A stretch of 13,022 bases of DNA from an uncultured bacterium. Lineage in GTDB: Bacteria; DRYD01. Shown here piece by piece: positions 2,691-13,022 of the stretch (positions are counted from its first letter, which is position 1; each line of letters begins with the position of its first letter). The stretch is taken from NCBI GenBank assembly GCA_937139605.1, contig CAKZQG010000016.1:1-13022 (forward strand), in the 5' to 3' direction. The position numbers and the translations under genes were made by a program. The notes below the pieces were generated by a model that worked only from the letters and a program-made list of their open reading frames with translations, ran no database searches and was not told the origin of the DNA.

Positions 2691-4202
2691 TTAAGCAAGA
2701 ACATTTTCAATTTTAGGGAATAATATTTTCCTTTCCTTGATATTAAAACTATCTGGAATAGTATAATCCCATTTTAAACTCTCTAAAGGTAAATTTAACT
2801 GTTCTAAAATATTATTAGCAATAAATGGCATAAACGGATATAACATTTTATTTAAAACAACTAATGAATAAACTAATTCATACATTATTTGATTAAGATT
2901 TTTATCTTTAATTTCCCATACTTTATAATTTTCTATGATTTTATTAAGATAATCTGCTAAATTTAAAATTTCTAATACAGCTTTAGAATAATTAAAATTA
3001 GATAATTCTTTATCAAAATTAGATAATCTTTCATTTATAAAAGAATTTTGAATATAAGAGAAATCAGATTCTTTAAAGACATATTTATTTAATTTTTTCT
3101 CAATAATAGCAAGTACTCTTGAAAATAAATTCCCAATATTATTAGAAAGCTCAGAAGTATAAATATATTTAAATCTTTCTAAGCTAACAGGGATATCCTG
3201 TCCAAAAGATCCTTCTCTAAGTAAATAATATCTTAAAGCTGAGATTTTTATTTTATCATTAGATAATGCGATTTCTTTCAGATTAAAAATATCGCCGCCT
3301 TTTGATTTAGATATCTTTTGATTATCATACATAAGCCATCCATGAGCAATTATTTTTTTAGGTAATTTTATATTTAATGCCATTAAAATAGCAGGCCAAA
3401 TAACTGCATGAAACCTTATTATATCTTTACCTACCATATGATGAGAAACTTCCCAATACTTATCAAATAAATCTAATTCAAATGGATAACCTAAAGCACT
3501 AATATAGTTAGTTAAAGCATCTATCCAGACATATATTGAATAATCTTGATCAAAAGGAACTCTTATCCCCCAATTATTATATTTTCTACTAACACTTAGA
3601 TCCTGAAGCCCACTTTTAACAAAAGAAACAACTTCATTAAATCTATAGTCAGGATAAACAAAATCTGGGTTATCTTCATAATATTTAAGGAGTTTATCTT
3701 CAAAAGCAGATAATTTAAAGAAATAATTTTCTTCTTTTATATAATTAAGTGGTCTTCTACATTCAATATTAGGGCATAATTTTGAATCATCTACTTTAGA
3801 AGTAGTCCAAAAAGTTTCGCAATGAATACAATACCATCCTTCATATAAGCCCTTATAAATATAACCCTGTTCATATAATTTTTGAAAAACGAACTGTGCA
3901 GTCTTAATATGATAATCTTCAGTAGTTCTTATAAATTTAGTATATTCAATATCCAGATTTTTCCAGATATTTTTAAACAACTCAGCCATTTCATTAACAT
4001 ATTCTATTGGTTTTTTATTAACTTTATTTGCGCTTTCTATGATTTTATTACTATTTTCATCAGTACCTGTTAAGAAAAATACATCATAATTCTTTTGTTT
4101 ATAAAACCTACTGATAACATCGCAAGCTATAGTAGTATAGGCTGTGCCTATATGAGGCTCCGAATTAGGATAATATATAGGCGTAGTTATATAAAATCTC
4201 AT
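2691..4202 (-). CDS. metG: Methionyl-tRNA synthetase, short form without C-terminal tRNA-binding domain
   Basis: A cytosolic class I aminoacyl-tRNA synthetase that charges tRNA-Met and initiator tRNA. The catalytic domain opens with ITTPIYYPNSEPHIGT (5-20), followed by TGTDEN (45-50). The zinc-binding knuckle has C125 and C128, then C143 and C148. DLSVSR, WIDALTNY (226-233), HHMVGKDIIRFH (254-265) and the KISKS loop (296-300, the KMSKS equivalent) follow. The helical anticodon-binding domain fills the rest to residue 503. The EMAP-like C-terminal domain (around 150 residues) present in many bacterial MetG proteins is absent. Oddities: the HIGH motif reads HIGT, and the usual TGTDEH reads TGTDEN. 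The start at 4202 has GGAAGAGGGAA just upstream. PilZ lies 60 nt upstream and ahcY 22 nt downstream. Confidence 0.96.
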   Translation of the reverse strand: MRFYITTPIYYPNSEPHIGTAYTTIACDVISRFYKQKNYDVFFLTGTDENSNKIIESANKVNKKPIEYVNEMAELFKNIWKNLDIEYTKFIRTTEDYHIKTAQFVFQKLYEQGYIYKGLYEGWYCIHCETFWTTSKVDDSKLCPNIECRRPLNYIKEENYFFKLSAFEDKLLKYYEDNPDFVYPDYRFNEVVSFVKSGLQDLSVSRKYNNWGIRVPFDQDYSIYVWIDALTNYISALGYPFELDLFDKYWEVSHHMVGKDIIRFHAVIWPAILMALNIKLPKKIIAHGWLMYDNQKISKSKGGDIFNLKEIALSNDKIKISALRYYLLREGSFGQDIPVSLERFKYIYTSELSNNIGNLFSRVLAIIEKKLNKYVFKESDFSYIQNSFINERLSNFDKELSNFNYSKAVLEILNLADYLNKIIENYKVWEIKDKNLNQIMYELVYSLVVLNKMLYPFMPFIANNILEQLNLPLESLKWDYTIPDSFNIKERKILFPKIENVLA

Positions 4203-4262
4203 AAATATTCCCTCTTCCGTTTTAGTTTATATCTTTGTATATATAATTTTTTTATAAAAAAC

Positions 4263-5108
4263 TTAAGGAGAATAAATAAAGTTTTCAATTTTTTTAATAT
4301 CTTCATTATTAGCTTCAATAAATTGTAATCCAATAACTACTCCAAAAGATTTTTCTTGTTGCCAGACTACTTTAGCTTTAATATAATCAGTTTCTTCATT
4401 ACCTAAAATAGCTTTAATTAATATCGGTTCATCAGTAGGTAATTCAAAATCATTAATTATACGCATACCAGTAATAGATAAATCCACAGCATAGGTATAA
4501 AATTTTTGGACCTCTTCTAAATATTTTACTTCTATTAAGAAGGGTTTTTTAACTCTAACAGCTCTTCTTTCTTCAAACGGAGCAAAATTTATTAAAAATT
4601 TATTAATAATTTCATAATCAGCATCCTTTAATTTAGCTAAATCAAAACCTACAGCATACAAACCAGAGTTTCTTATTAATTCCTTACACCAAGCAATTCT
4701 CCCTTCAGTTACTACTGGTTCCTTAGCTACATAAAATTCCACTTTAACATTATCTTCTAGTTTTAATGGGATATCAGAAATAATTTTCATCCCATGCCGA
4801 GATATATCAACAACACTAACCCATTTATCAACAATAAAATCTTCTGAATAATGAATAACTATTCTCACTAATCTAGCAGGCTCTAATACTCTTCTTTCTT
4901 CTTTTCTTCTATCTTTACCTTTGGAATATTTAAAATCTACTAGAACAGGGGTATTATTATTTTCTTCTTCTTCTTCTTCTGTTTGATTAATATCATTATT
5001 ATTTTCTTGATCATTAATATTATTTTTATTAAATTCATTATAATTATTTTCATTAGAATTATTTTGATTATTATTATTTAGGTTGTTTTGATTTTTTTCT
5101 TCTTGCAT
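4263..5108 (-). CDS. Tandem PilZ-domain protein with Asn/Glu-rich N-terminus
   Basis: A 281-residue predicted cytosolic cyclic-di-GMP receptor with two PilZ domains. Residues 1-53 are low complexity: mostly Asn, then a six-Glu run (44-49) encoded by a TTC repeat on the plus strand. The first domain (about 66-175) has the RxxxR motif at 68-72 and DISRHG (101-106), the D/N-x-S-x-x-G signature. The second (about 178-279) has R181-x3-R185 and DLSITG (209-214). Both sets of binding residues look intact, so both domains could bind ligand. No enzymatic or membrane domain is attached; such proteins usually work through a partner in motility, adhesion or envelope functions, but nothing here identifies it. 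ATG 5108 follows a GGGGGAG ribosome binding site. The next upstream gene, encoding an exported protein, ends 27 nt before it. Confidence 0.85.
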   Translation of the reverse strand: MQEEKNQNNLNNNNQNNSNENNYNEFNKNNINDQENNNDINQTEEEEEENNNTPVLVDFKYSKGKDRRKEERRVLEPARLVRIVIHYSEDFIVDKWVSVVDISRHGMKIISDIPLKLEDNVKVEFYVAKEPVVTEGRIAWCKELIRNSGLYAVGFDLAKLKDADYEIINKFLINFAPFEERRAVRVKKPFLIEVKYLEEVQKFYTYAVDLSITGMRIINDFELPTDEPILIKAILGNEETDYIKAKVVWQQEKSFGVVIGLQFIEANNEDIKKIENFIYSP

Positions 5109-5135
5109 TTATAAACTCCCCCTGAATTTTATTTT

Positions 5136-6149
5136 TTAAAATTTATTAATAATTTCTTTATATCTATTAAAATTATTAATAAAATTAAAAACAGAGATAT
5201 CAATAAGATCTAAAAGTTTAGATTTCCTATATCTAGTGGAACTAGAAGAAAAGACAGCTAATCCTCTAATTACATTTTGAGAATCAAAATATAATATATC
5301 TCCTTTATTATTGATTAATATATAATCAATAATAAGTTGTACTTCAGGATTCATTATATTTTCTGATTTTTCGTGATATTCATATGCTCTAATAATGGGA
5401 ATAATAGCAGCAGATACCCCCCTTTTATTTAAATAATCTAATATTTCCTTTATGTTTAAAGCATTGATATTCTGATTTTTATCAACTATAACAGGAATAC
5501 TTAATTTACTAATAAAAGAATCATTTATTCTATCTTTTATATTATTTAATTCTTCTTTATATACAATAGAATCTTTATAAAGTGGTTTAATTTCATTTAT
5601 TGCATCTATTATAACTATATTTTTAATAGAATTAATTTCCTTCAATATAATTTTATTTATTGAAGTATTAGAATAATATTTATCAGAATAACTTAAATAA
5701 GAATTATCATAAGAAAAATTAGGAGTACTAGAAGAATTTGTTGTTTGTAAATTACTTGTAGTATCTTTATTAACTAACTCGGATTTATCTTGATTTTTTT
5801 TAGGATTATTAGTAGCAGTAATTGTAGAATTAGAAGTATTAGAATAATTATTTGATGAAACATTAGGTAAATTAATATTCTTATAAAACATTATATATTT
5901 CCTTGTTAAATTTATTTCATAATCAATATTAAATAGAACTGAAAGATCATAAATATCCACAAAAACATTCGTTCCTTTTATGATAGGATTAGTAGGAGTT
6001 TCTTTTTCTTGGCCCTTAATTTTTAATTTCCATTTATCTTCAGAAAAAATAATAACTGAAACTAAAATAAAAATAAAAATAAAACTTAAAATAAAAAAAT
6101 ATTTATTAAATTTATTATTATTATTCAGATTATAATTTTTAATTTTCAT
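5136..6149 (-). CDS. Membrane-anchored extracytoplasmic protein, function unknown
   Basis: I do not recognise a named family. The 337-residue product has a basic Asn-rich N-terminus, one hydrophobic segment (about 17-36) acting as signal anchor, and then an exported part. Residues about 52-90, including IIKGTNVFVDIYDLSVLF, resemble the small beta repeat of the copper amine oxidase N-terminal type found in many secreted proteins; this is a loose resemblance. A Ser/Asn/Thr-rich linker (97-165) follows, then a compact domain (166-337) with alternating beta and helical patterns, reminiscent in style of envelope lipoproteins but without a lipobox Cys. ATG 6149 is preferred: it has AAAGGAG upstream, and starting at 6230 would overlap the previous gene by 74 nt and add an odd N-terminus. 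It begins 7 nt after the DUF116-like gene ends. Confidence 0.6.
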   Translation of the reverse strand: MKIKNYNLNNNNKFNKYFFILSFIFIFILVSVIIFSEDKWKLKIKGQEKETPTNPIIKGTNVFVDIYDLSVLFNIDYEINLTRKYIMFYKNINLPNVSSNNYSNTSNSTITATNNPKKNQDKSELVNKDTTSNLQTTNSSSTPNFSYDNSYLSYSDKYYSNTSINKIILKEINSIKNIVIIDAINEIKPLYKDSIVYKEELNNIKDRINDSFISKLSIPVIVDKNQNINALNIKEILDYLNKRGVSAAIIPIIRAYEYHEKSENIMNPEVQLIIDYILINNKGDILYFDSQNVIRGLAVFSSSSTRYRKSKLLDLIDISVFNFINNFNRYKEIINKF

Positions 6150-11210: not shown

Positions 11211-11286
11211 AATAATTAAGCACTTTTCTTTTTCAATTCTTTTTTTTCAATTCCTCTAAGTTCAGATACAACTTTGTTTATTTTAA
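11211..11286. other. Trailer end of the CRISPR array with degenerate repeat fragments
   Basis: Between the hemW stop and the first intact repeat lies a pyrimidine-rich stretch holding TTTCAATTC (11231-11239) and TTTCAATTCCT (11245-11255), the latter matching positions 2-12 of the repeat. Neither is in register with the 66-nt repeat-spacer period. They look like eroded remnants at the leader-distal end. I see no hemW terminator hairpin here. Confidence 0.45.
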
Positions 11287-11447
11287 GTTTCAATTCCTTA
11301 TAGGTAGGCTAAAACGAACAATCATAAAAACAGAAAAAGGGAATTATATTCTGTTTCAATTCCTTATAGGTAGGCTAAAACCTACTTTACCTGAAAACTT
11401 TGAAGAAAAATTTCTTAAGTTTCAATTCCTTATAGGTAGGCTAAAAC

Positions 11448-11470
11448 GTGGGTATGGATACCATACCTAC
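11448..11470. repeat. Hairpin in spacer 3
   Basis: GTGGGTATGG (11448-11457) and CCATACCTAC (11461-11470) are reverse complements at 9 of 10 positions, with a 3-nt loop. The only exception is a G-T wobble. The hairpin fills about two thirds of the spacer. Confidence 0.8.
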
Positions 11471-12043
11471 TATACCAAGTTCCGTTTCAATTCCTTATAG
11501 GTAGGCTAAAACATACAAAGAAAAAATTTGAAATAAAAGAATATTTCCGTTTCAATTCCTTATAGGTAGGCTAAAACAATATATCTATATCCTCATTCCA
11601 TATATACATAGTTTGTTTCAATTCCTTATAGGTAGGCTAAAACAATTAAAAATTTAAGGAAGAGATTGAAAATATTGGAGTTTCAATTCCTTATAGGTAG
11701 GCTAAAACCATTCATTATCCCTATTTTATCATCTATACTCCACATAGTTTCAATTCCTTATAGGTAGGCTAAAACATCTATATATATATCTATCCTACAG
11801 AAAATAAAATACGTTTCAATTCCTTATAGGTAGGCTAAAACTTGAGATATTTGATTGGGAGGATTATGTGATATTTGTGTTTCAATTCCTTATAGGTAGG
11901 CTAAAACGATAGTGAAGGAGTTGAAGGAGATAAGGAATGAGATAAGTTTCAATTCCTTATAGGTAGGCTAAAACAAAGAAAGAAAGGGGGTGTAGATATG
12001 GAAAGATATGAGTGTTTCAATTCCTTATAGGTAGGCTAAAACG

Positions 12044-12076
12044 AGTTCAGGGAAGGAATTGAACCTTCCCTGAACT
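12044..12076. repeat. Hairpin in spacer 12 (13-bp stem, loop AATTGAA)
   Basis: AGTTCAGGGAAGG (12044-12056) and CCTTCCCTGAACT (12064-12076) are perfect inverted repeats around the 7-nt loop AATTGAA. The palindrome occupies 33 of the 36 spacer bases. The same stem recurs in spacer 25 with the loop inverted. Confidence 0.95.
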
Positions 12077-12314
12077 AAGTTTCAATTCCTTATAGGTAGG
12101 CTAAAACTTATTAAATAGTTCATTGAATGGATTATTTTTATCAAGTTTCAATTCCTTATAGGTAGGCTAAAACTACTGGGTGAATGAGGAGTATAGCGGG
12201 GATGGAGCGTATGTTTCAATTCCTTATAGGTAGGCTAAAACACATACTATATGATTTTTTGTTAAAGAAGTTATTAGAGTTTCAATTCCTTATAGGTAGG
12301 CTAAAACTTCCTAG

Positions 12315-12332
12315 CTTCACTTTCAAGCGAAG
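12315..12332. repeat. Hairpin in spacer 16
   Basis: CTTCACTT (12315-12322) and AAGCGAAG (12325-12332) are reverse complements at 7 of 8 positions around a 2-nt loop. Confidence 0.55.
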
Positions 12333-12383
12333 AATTCCAAAAAAGTTTCAATTCCTTATAGGTAGGCTAAAACTATTTTGTTA

Positions 12384-12409
12384 AAAATTTGTTAATTTTA
12401 ACAAATTTT
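12384..12409. repeat. Hairpin in spacer 17 (12-bp perfect)
   Basis: AAAATTTGTTAA (12384-12395) and TTAACAAATTTT (12398-12409) are perfect inverted repeats separated by TT. The arms are AT-rich, so chance is likelier here than in the GC-containing hairpins, but 12 paired bases in one spacer is still striking. Confidence 0.85.
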
Positions 12410-12505
12410 GTTTCAATTCCTTATAGGTAGGCTAAAACAATATGAGTAATTTATATCTTACCAATGCTTTTTCAATGTTTCAATTCCTTATAGGTAGGCT
12501 AAAAC

Positions 12506-12524
12506 GTTGCAATTGTATTGCAAC
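12506..12524. repeat. Hairpin in spacer 19 (8-bp perfect)
   Basis: GTTGCAAT (12506-12513) and ATTGCAAC (12517-12524) are perfect inverted repeats around TGT. The hairpin begins at the first base of the spacer. Confidence 0.85.
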
Positions 12525-12641
12525 CCGGTTTACAGGAACTTCGTTTCAATTCCTTATAGGTAGGCTAAAACCGAGGGGGAGATCCTCGCTACTGAATGGG
12601 AAACTAACGAGTTTCAATTCCTTATAGGTAGGCTAAAACTC

Positions 12642-12670
12642 TCCGCGGTGGGACACGTATCCACAGCGGA
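12642..12670. repeat. Hairpin in spacer 21
   Basis: TCCGCGGTGG (12642-12651) and CCACAGCGGA (12661-12670) pair at 9 of 10 positions around a 9-nt loop. The spacer is much richer in G+C than the surrounding genes. Confidence 0.8.
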
Positions 12671-12911
12671 AGTAAGTTTCAATTCCTTATAGGTAGGCTA
12701 AAACGGGGGTGGGGAGGCTCACCCTCTGAAATTATTTTAGAGTTTCAATTCCTTATAGGTAGGCTAAAACTAGCAAGTGGTTGGCTATAGACATTTCTTT
12801 TTATTCATTCATTTGTTTCAATTCCTTATAGGTAGGCTAAAACTTTCAGATATATGCTCCAATTCACGGTTATGATTATAGTTTCAATTCCTTATAGGTA
12901 GGCTAAAACGG

Positions 12912-12944
12912 AGTTCAGGGAAGGTTCAATTCCTTCCCTGAACT
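12912..12944. repeat. Hairpin in spacer 25 (13-bp stem, loop TTCAATT)
   Basis: The arms at 12912-12924 and 12932-12944 are identical to those of spacer 12, but the loop TTCAATT is the reverse complement of the spacer 12 loop. This is the spacer next to the leader, so it is probably the newest. Positions 12923-12935 match 12 of the first 13 bases of the CRISPR repeat. Confidence 0.95.
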
Positions 12945-12975
12945 AAGTTTCAATTCCTTATAGGTAGGCTAAAAC

Positions 12976-13022
12976 CCGTAAAGTAAATTTTTTACTTTCT
13001 ATAATAAAATTAAATAAAAAAT
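12976..13022 (-). promoter_or_regulatory. Start of the CRISPR leader (cut by the window edge)
   Basis: The 47 bases after the last repeat are AT-rich and unlike a spacer followed by a repeat. They include a perfect inverted repeat, AAAGTAAA (12980-12987) and TTTACTTT (12991-12998), with a 3-nt loop, five bases from the repeat. This could be a leader element used for docking of the adaptation complex, an inference from its position. The array promoter would lie further right, outside the window. Confidence 0.55.

Follow-up and report, generated by a model that had tools for sequence, protein, structure and literature searches.

Type I-B CRISPR arrays with a GTTTCAATTCCTNATAGGTA-type repeat are found in Firmicutes, Thermodesulfobacteria and others, and are accompanied by 36–39 nt spacers, a ATTGAAAC tag and a cas1-2-4-6-3-5-7-8b gene set; ATTGAAAC is the usual tag of type I-A, I-B and III crRNAs. 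The window analysed here, a stretch of 13,022 nt, is one whole contig (C16) of a genome of 1.88 Mb (88.5% complete, 45 contigs, GC ≈24% in the stretches read), and its final 1.7 kb is an array that shares the repeat, spacer length and tag with these systems, with the gene set found beside a sibling array. Direct repeats (26) alternate with regular, unique spacers (25), as in a type I-B array. The minus-strand repeat terminates in ATTGAAAC, so that the crRNA strand is the minus strand and the leader lies on the right; the sequence-only reading had placed it there, and the 46–48 bases that follow the last repeat are indeed common to all four arrays with this repeat, being identical in C16, C22 and C4 and one base off in C26. 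Besides the three further arrays with the identical repeat (on C22, C4 and C26), the same genome carries a fifth, on C45, with a second repeat (CTTTCAATTCCACTAGGTTCAGATATAAC; 13 spacers; detected through the similarity of one spacer), for a total of 66 spacers over the five arrays. Spacers of the window array are given below by number alone and the others by contig and number, e.g., C45-11.

The C26 locus, beside a sibling array with the same repeat and leader, reads cas1-cas2-cas6-cas4-cas3-cas5-cas7-cas8b, which is a type I-B set. Its effectors, encoded outside the window, are Cas8b (5e-98), Cas3b (8.5e-173), Cas7 (1.5e-66) and Cas6, with a weak match for Cas5. Three of the four contigs with same-repeat arrays stop ≈47 nt into the leader (window 12976–13022; ends of stretches L009 and L011), and three contigs ending in an identical leader indicate that the assembly breaks at repeated leaders. 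The decayed second-family repeat at the trailer end (Table 1) makes the C16 array seem to occupy the site of a former array of the other family. A comparable second-family relic lies ahead of the C4 array (stretch L011), and decayed same-family repeats are scattered ≈10 kb from the C26 array, beyond the Cmr genes (L010 about 4100–5400; C26:24.1–25.4k).

Table 1. Positions in the window of the array, its flanks and the spacers with stems (E, folding energy)
Feature	Position	Strand	Description
CRISPR array	11287..12975	-	26 identical 29-nt repeats GTTTCAATTCCTTATAGGTAGGCTAAAAC, 25 spacers; Rfam CRISPR-DR2 match at every repeat
Leader, first 47 nt	12976..13022		Near-identical beside all four same-repeat arrays
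Decayed repeat, second family (CTTTCAATTCCACTAGGTTCAGATATAAC)	11244..11272	+	Trailer end; CRISPR-DR43 27.5 bits, below cutoff
Spacer 3	11448..11483		Stem GTGGGTATGG/CCATACCTAC from spacer base 1; E -6.7, p 0.03
Spacer 12	12043..12078		13-bp perfect stem AGTTCAGGGAAGG, 7-nt loop AATTGAA; E -14.1, z -7
Spacer 17	12374..12409		AT-rich 11-bp stem; carries TTTTGTTAAAAATTTGTTAA, found also in host oriC-like region
Spacer 19	12506..12542		Perfect 8-3-8 palindrome from spacer base 1
Spacer 20	12572..12610		Stem CGAGG/CCTCG at base 1; coding-like site common to C45 spacer 11, overlaps C22 spacer 7
Spacer 21	12640..12675		9 pairs plus one mismatch, offset 2; E -8.9, p 0.003
Spacer 22	12705..12741		Wobble-containing stem GGGGGTGGG/CTCACCCTC from base 1; second stem AT-rich
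Spacer 25 (newest)	12910..12946		13-bp stem of spacer 12, loop inverted (TTCAATT); PAM-side end equal, PAM-distal end +1 base

We find that the spacers of this genome are strongly enriched in hairpins. The sequence-only reading had proposed such an enrichment for the window array, and had named shuffled spacers, or other arrays with the same repeat, reaching similar stem lengths as the outcomes that would speak against it; neither dinucleotide shuffles nor 1,544 spacers from related-repeat arrays of other genomes reach the level seen here. Added up over all 66 spacers, the folding energy lies 9.4 s.d. below that of dinucleotide shuffles (8.1 s.d. when spacer 12 is left out), with 10/66 spacers at shuffle p ≤ 0.01 and, in the window, 8 of the 25 at p ≤ 0.05. 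Perfect stems of at least 10 bp occur in 5/66 spacers and in 0/1,544 controls (p = 2.4e-6 with the locus of spacers 12 and 25 counted once), a comparison to be read with the hairpin measures partly chosen post hoc, the 10-bp measure being already in use before the second control set was added. The controls comprise 226 spacers from five other genomes with related repeats and 1,318 spacers from loci of named genomes found by repeat pattern; their GC content of 0.35–0.40, vs 0.30 for our spacers, should favour stable stems, and the comparison is therefore conservative. Within the window array by itself, 6/25 spacers reach E ≤ -6 kcal/mol, vs 52/1,544 controls (p = 2e-4, or 1.3e-3 with spacers 12 and 25 collapsed).

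The excess spans the C16, C26 and C45 arrays and is thus a property of the genome, not of a single array, and is limited to this genome among those compared. Palindromic spacers are about ten-fold commoner in this genome than in comparable bacteria. It does not reflect a habit of the host genome, a candidate that we rejected on finding few GC-containing stems in 83 kb of its own DNA; a perfect stem of at least 8 bp with at least three GC pairs is present in 0.08% of its non-array 37-mers vs 9.4% of 53 of its spacers. Chance or base composition does let AT-rich spacers form long AT stems, as in spacer 17, C22-1 and C22-11, but has next to no likelihood as the general explanation, and is refuted for the GC-rich stems by the 9.4 s.d. 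distance from shuffles and by the empty ≥10-bp class among the 1,544 controls. A concentration of stems in the leader-proximal half, earlier taken as a possible recent trend, is not borne out (6/13 vs 2/12 spacers, p = 0.20).

Most of the individual stems stand as first described: 10 bp with one wobble in spacer 3, 13 bp perfect in spacers 12 and 25, 8 bp perfect in spacer 19, and a one-mismatch stem in spacer 21, counted here as nine pairs plus the mismatch. The weaker stems of spacers 20 and 22 are modest (p ≤ 0.05 against shuffles), those claimed for spacers 16 and 23 are non-significant by the same measure, and the stem of spacer 17, given as 12 bp perfect, measures 11 bp, is AT-rich and has a dinucleotide-shuffle p of ≈0.01. 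Four perfect stems of 8–13 bp had been counted in the window array, and the stems are present; since one hairpin, its loop inverted, recurs in spacers 12 and 25, which are thus non-independent, the four stems amount to three loci. Other strong hairpins in the genome are found in C26-3 (10 bp), C26-6 (11 bp) and C45-3 (8 bp plus wobbles). An intrinsic terminator would show a GC-rich stem followed by a T-run; C26-9 has a stem and a T-run on the crRNA strand, C26-3 has a GCAA loop, and most other hairpins have no T-run within the spacer.

Spacers 12 and 25 are closely related. Spacer 12 reads G-AGTTCAGGGAAGG-AATTGAA-CCTTCCCTGAACT-AA and spacer 25 reads GG-AGTTCAGGGAAGG-TTCAATT-CCTTCCCTGAACT-AA, such that they agree in the stem and at the right end, differ by one base at the left end, and have 7-nt loops that are exact reverse complements of each other. 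Duplication within the array would have left the length unchanged, which makes two acquisitions sharing a fixed right (PAM-side) end the simplest explanation, and from their sequences the pair is best read as one site captured twice, the second time after inversion of the loop. The two loops would reflect either a single locus whose loop inverted or a 13-7-13 site present in two copies of opposite orientation. Flanking identity in favour of one locus amounts to only 3 nt (G on the left, AA on the right), and AA is a frequent spacer end (15/66). Template switching at perfect hairpins inverts loops, including loops of 7–8 nt (PMC8794818). The inversion alters all seven central bases of the site, and a loop-inverted invader would plausibly have escaped the older spacer 12. 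A host origin of this hairpin was considered and rejected, as within the own genome only the array itself matches. The two spacers (12043–12078 and 12910–12946) also have 11 nt, TTCAATTCCTT, in common with the CRISPR repeat, where 0.05 such cases are expected among 66 spacers, and their hairpin is reminiscent of a tRNA acceptor/T-arm helix (12 bp, TTCAATT loop).

A second site is sampled repeatedly across arrays. One stretch that looks coding, EG..LA(T/A)EWE(GQK), is common to spacer 20, C45-11 and C22-7, and the first two of these spacers stop at the same homologous base despite belonging to arrays with different repeats, which suggests a PAM-fixed end on DNA. Two sets of spacers thus re-sample one site with the same PAM-side end (12/25 and 20/C45-11), which favours DNA capture; the invaders behind the five arrays may have been few, and the genome assembly is incomplete. 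The stem shared by spacer 20 and C45-11 lies in coding-like sequence (E-G-x-x-L-A-T/A-E-W-E), as it would if the invader genome were a highly structured single strand, of DNA or RNA, whose coding regions fold; an RNA source would need reverse transcription, and the genome does encode a stand-alone reverse transcriptase (RT). We consider such an invader quite improbable, given that the PAM-like fixed ends indicate DNA, that perfect 10–13 bp stems with short loops resemble DNA elements, and that the RT resembles retron or unclassified RTs and is not near cas genes in the stretch read. C22-4 and C22-12 (stretch L009) encode the kindred peptides FDGEYEM and DGDGQYEIWYE, which suggests that one gene family of an invader was sampled more than once.

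The position of the stems within the spacers may also be non-random. Among the 13 spacers of this genome with a GC-containing stem above a fixed score, the stem starts exactly at the left (PAM-distal, crRNA-3′) base in seven, with 1.26 expected if random (p = 5e-5), and ends at the right (PAM) base in none, a pattern that is post hoc and based on small numbers. Two of the three C45 cases are left-flush, and that array was found after the pattern had first been noticed by eye. Of 102 stems in the 1,318-spacer control set, 16 are flush on the left and 12 on the right (8.6 expected), a mild symmetric excess of the kind expected where spacer ends cut longer stems short; a one-sided rule generic to the repeat family was rejected on these grounds. 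The left-end excess in our spacers exceeds that of the controls (p = 0.004; 0.007 with repeats collapsed), with p = 0.07 for the left-vs-right contrast against controls, and stems flush with the PAM-distal end are suggestive of capture at extruded hairpin ends.

Flush stems at one end only, always PAM-distal among the GC-rich flush stems of this genome, would also be produced if a 3′ end folded back and were extended before integration, leaving part of the spacer with no counterpart in the invader. This is highly doubtful: spacer 20 and C45-11 have both the outer and the inner stem arm in common, within one uninterrupted reading frame, the stems of spacers 12, 21, 25 and C26-3 do not reach the spacer end, and the larger control set has only the mild excess, at both ends. 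The seven end-flush spacers leave 7–23 nt of the PAM-proximal (seed) end free of the stem, and could therefore still give working guides; in spacers 12, 25 and C26-3 the seed lies inside the stem, and guides transcribed from them might not work.

Capture of structured RNA through an RT-Cas1 fusion was another source proposed from the sequence alone, and a type III-B effector set and an RT are both present in this genome. Inspection of the cas loci for a fusion leaves this extremely improbable. The genome has two cas1 genes, one in the C26 locus and a second on C6 together with cas4, cas3 and the type III-B set; both are of normal length, neither is fused to an RT, and no RT lies nearby. At 88.5% completeness a missing locus is possible but not indicated. 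The sole RT found is a stand-alone gene on a different contig, C2 (L057 5416–6585, 389 aa; best PADLOC match RT_XIII). Its resemblance is to retron and unclassified RTs, and the reading frames listed for part of the stretch around it include no cas gene. A 12-bp perfect hairpin (L057 6615–6643) lies ≈30 nt upstream of the RT start and has no Rfam match; the two are possibly a retron.

No protospacers were found in viral contigs, by exact scans with eight patterns, or in phages, plasmids, the own genome and its relatives. A viral match to the degenerate peptide pattern falls in a GC-rich integrase-like gene (L058) and was rejected as chance, and phage and plasmid blastn matches of the array were either to repeat units of other arrays or due to chance. 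Spacer 17, which is AT-rich, is alone in having notable partial matches in the own genome and relatives, all in AT-rich host regions, one of which contains DnaA-box clusters and TTTGTTAA iterons. Like spacer 17, the AT-rich spacers C22-6, C22-11, C45-8 and C45-13 resemble the TTTGTTAA iterons of the host oriC-like region (L079 900–2720), near which many TTATCCACA boxes are found and with which spacer 17 shares 20 nt. These spacers may stem from elements that use a similar origin, or may be self-derived.

The likeliest account, which we put at an even chance, is that the spacers are ordinary type I-B DNA captures by Cas4-Cas1-Cas2 from uncatalogued invaders, over-sampled at palindromes; DNA capture by such a module is consistent with every measurement made here, and we infer from the spacers the DNA source, the PAM side, the identity of the sites and the preferential capture at palindromes. 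Cas1, Cas2 and Cas4 would take DNA with a PAM-fixed end from viruses or plasmids outside the collections searched, and the hairpins would be palindromic sites of these invaders, namely intergenic elements resembling terminators, operators or recombination sites, together with at least one stem in coding-like sequence. Such palindromes would probably extrude as hairpins or cruciforms, stall forks and be cut, with the resulting DNA ends feeding Cas4-Cas1-Cas2. The over-sampling would arise either from extraordinarily palindromic invaders or from palindromic sites being preferred capture points. The sequence-only reading had likewise proposed a palindrome-dense invader and capture from single-stranded or cruciform DNA; both are still candidate causes, and the PAM-distal flush stems hint at the latter.

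Random capture from a few invaders with small, palindrome-rich genomes would do without any capture bias. The same sites are sampled repeatedly (12/25; 20/C45-11/C22-7), so few invaders dominate, and a GC-richer invader class may carry the hairpins, with E ≤ -5 in 10/17 spacers of GC ≥38% vs 2/49 of the AT-richer ones, although GC content is confounded with stem stability in this comparison. To make roughly half of the GC-richer class hairpins, however, the invader genome would have to be largely palindromic, and the end-flush pattern is left unexplained; we regard unbiased capture as unlikely, though far from negligible.

Palindromes could be outright capture hot spots for this adaptation module, which as a complete scheme we hold to be rather unlikely. 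Hairpins or cruciforms extruded by the invader would be cut, e.g., by Cas4 or a junction resolvase, the cut end flush with the stem base would become the PAM-distal end of the prespacer, and loop inversion would be a one-step escape of the invader that the host answers by capturing the flipped form. If a fragment end is made at the stem base, the one-sided flush pattern would follow. One CAS-Cas4 is reported to nick a cruciform plasmid and cut branched DNA (PMC12538437), and E. coli Cas1 neither bound nor cut Holliday junctions in one study (PMC4678826). Related-repeat hosts, which presumably meet palindromes too, show no excess, so something host- or invader-specific is still needed.

We found no report of palindromic or hairpin-forming spacers of this kind in the open-access papers searched, which is weak evidence of novelty as subscription papers fall mostly outside them. 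How naive adaptation picks its DNA is an open question in the field, and a genome with ≈ten-fold palindrome enrichment, in which many stems stop at a defined end of the spacer, would offer a natural setting for testing structure-guided capture. Guides that pair with themselves raise the question of whether such crRNAs interfere, and spacers 12 and 25 would document, in nature, an invader that changed seven bases at once by loop inversion and was then recaptured.

The core sites of tyrosine recombinases such as loxP and FRT have a 13-8-13 layout. The 12/25 site resembles them in being 13-7-13 with an asymmetric centre, seen here in both orientations, and differs in having no known recombinase or invader locus and in flanks that fit a single flipped-loop locus better. 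With template-switch loop inversion (PMC8794818) the pair shares a perfect stem that is kept, a reverse-complemented loop and a constant length; the difference is that the case is known from two spacers alone and not from the invader. RT-Cas1 type III systems (PMC5513706) have in common with this genome type III-B effectors, an RT and spacers with no identified source, and differ in that Cas1 here is unfused and the RT is unlinked to any cas gene found. From the type I-B arrays with a GTTTCAATTCCTNATAGGTA-type repeat, which it matches in repeat, spacer length, tag and cas set, the locus differs in spacer content, with perfect stems of at least 10 bp in 5/66 spacers here vs 0/1,544 there.
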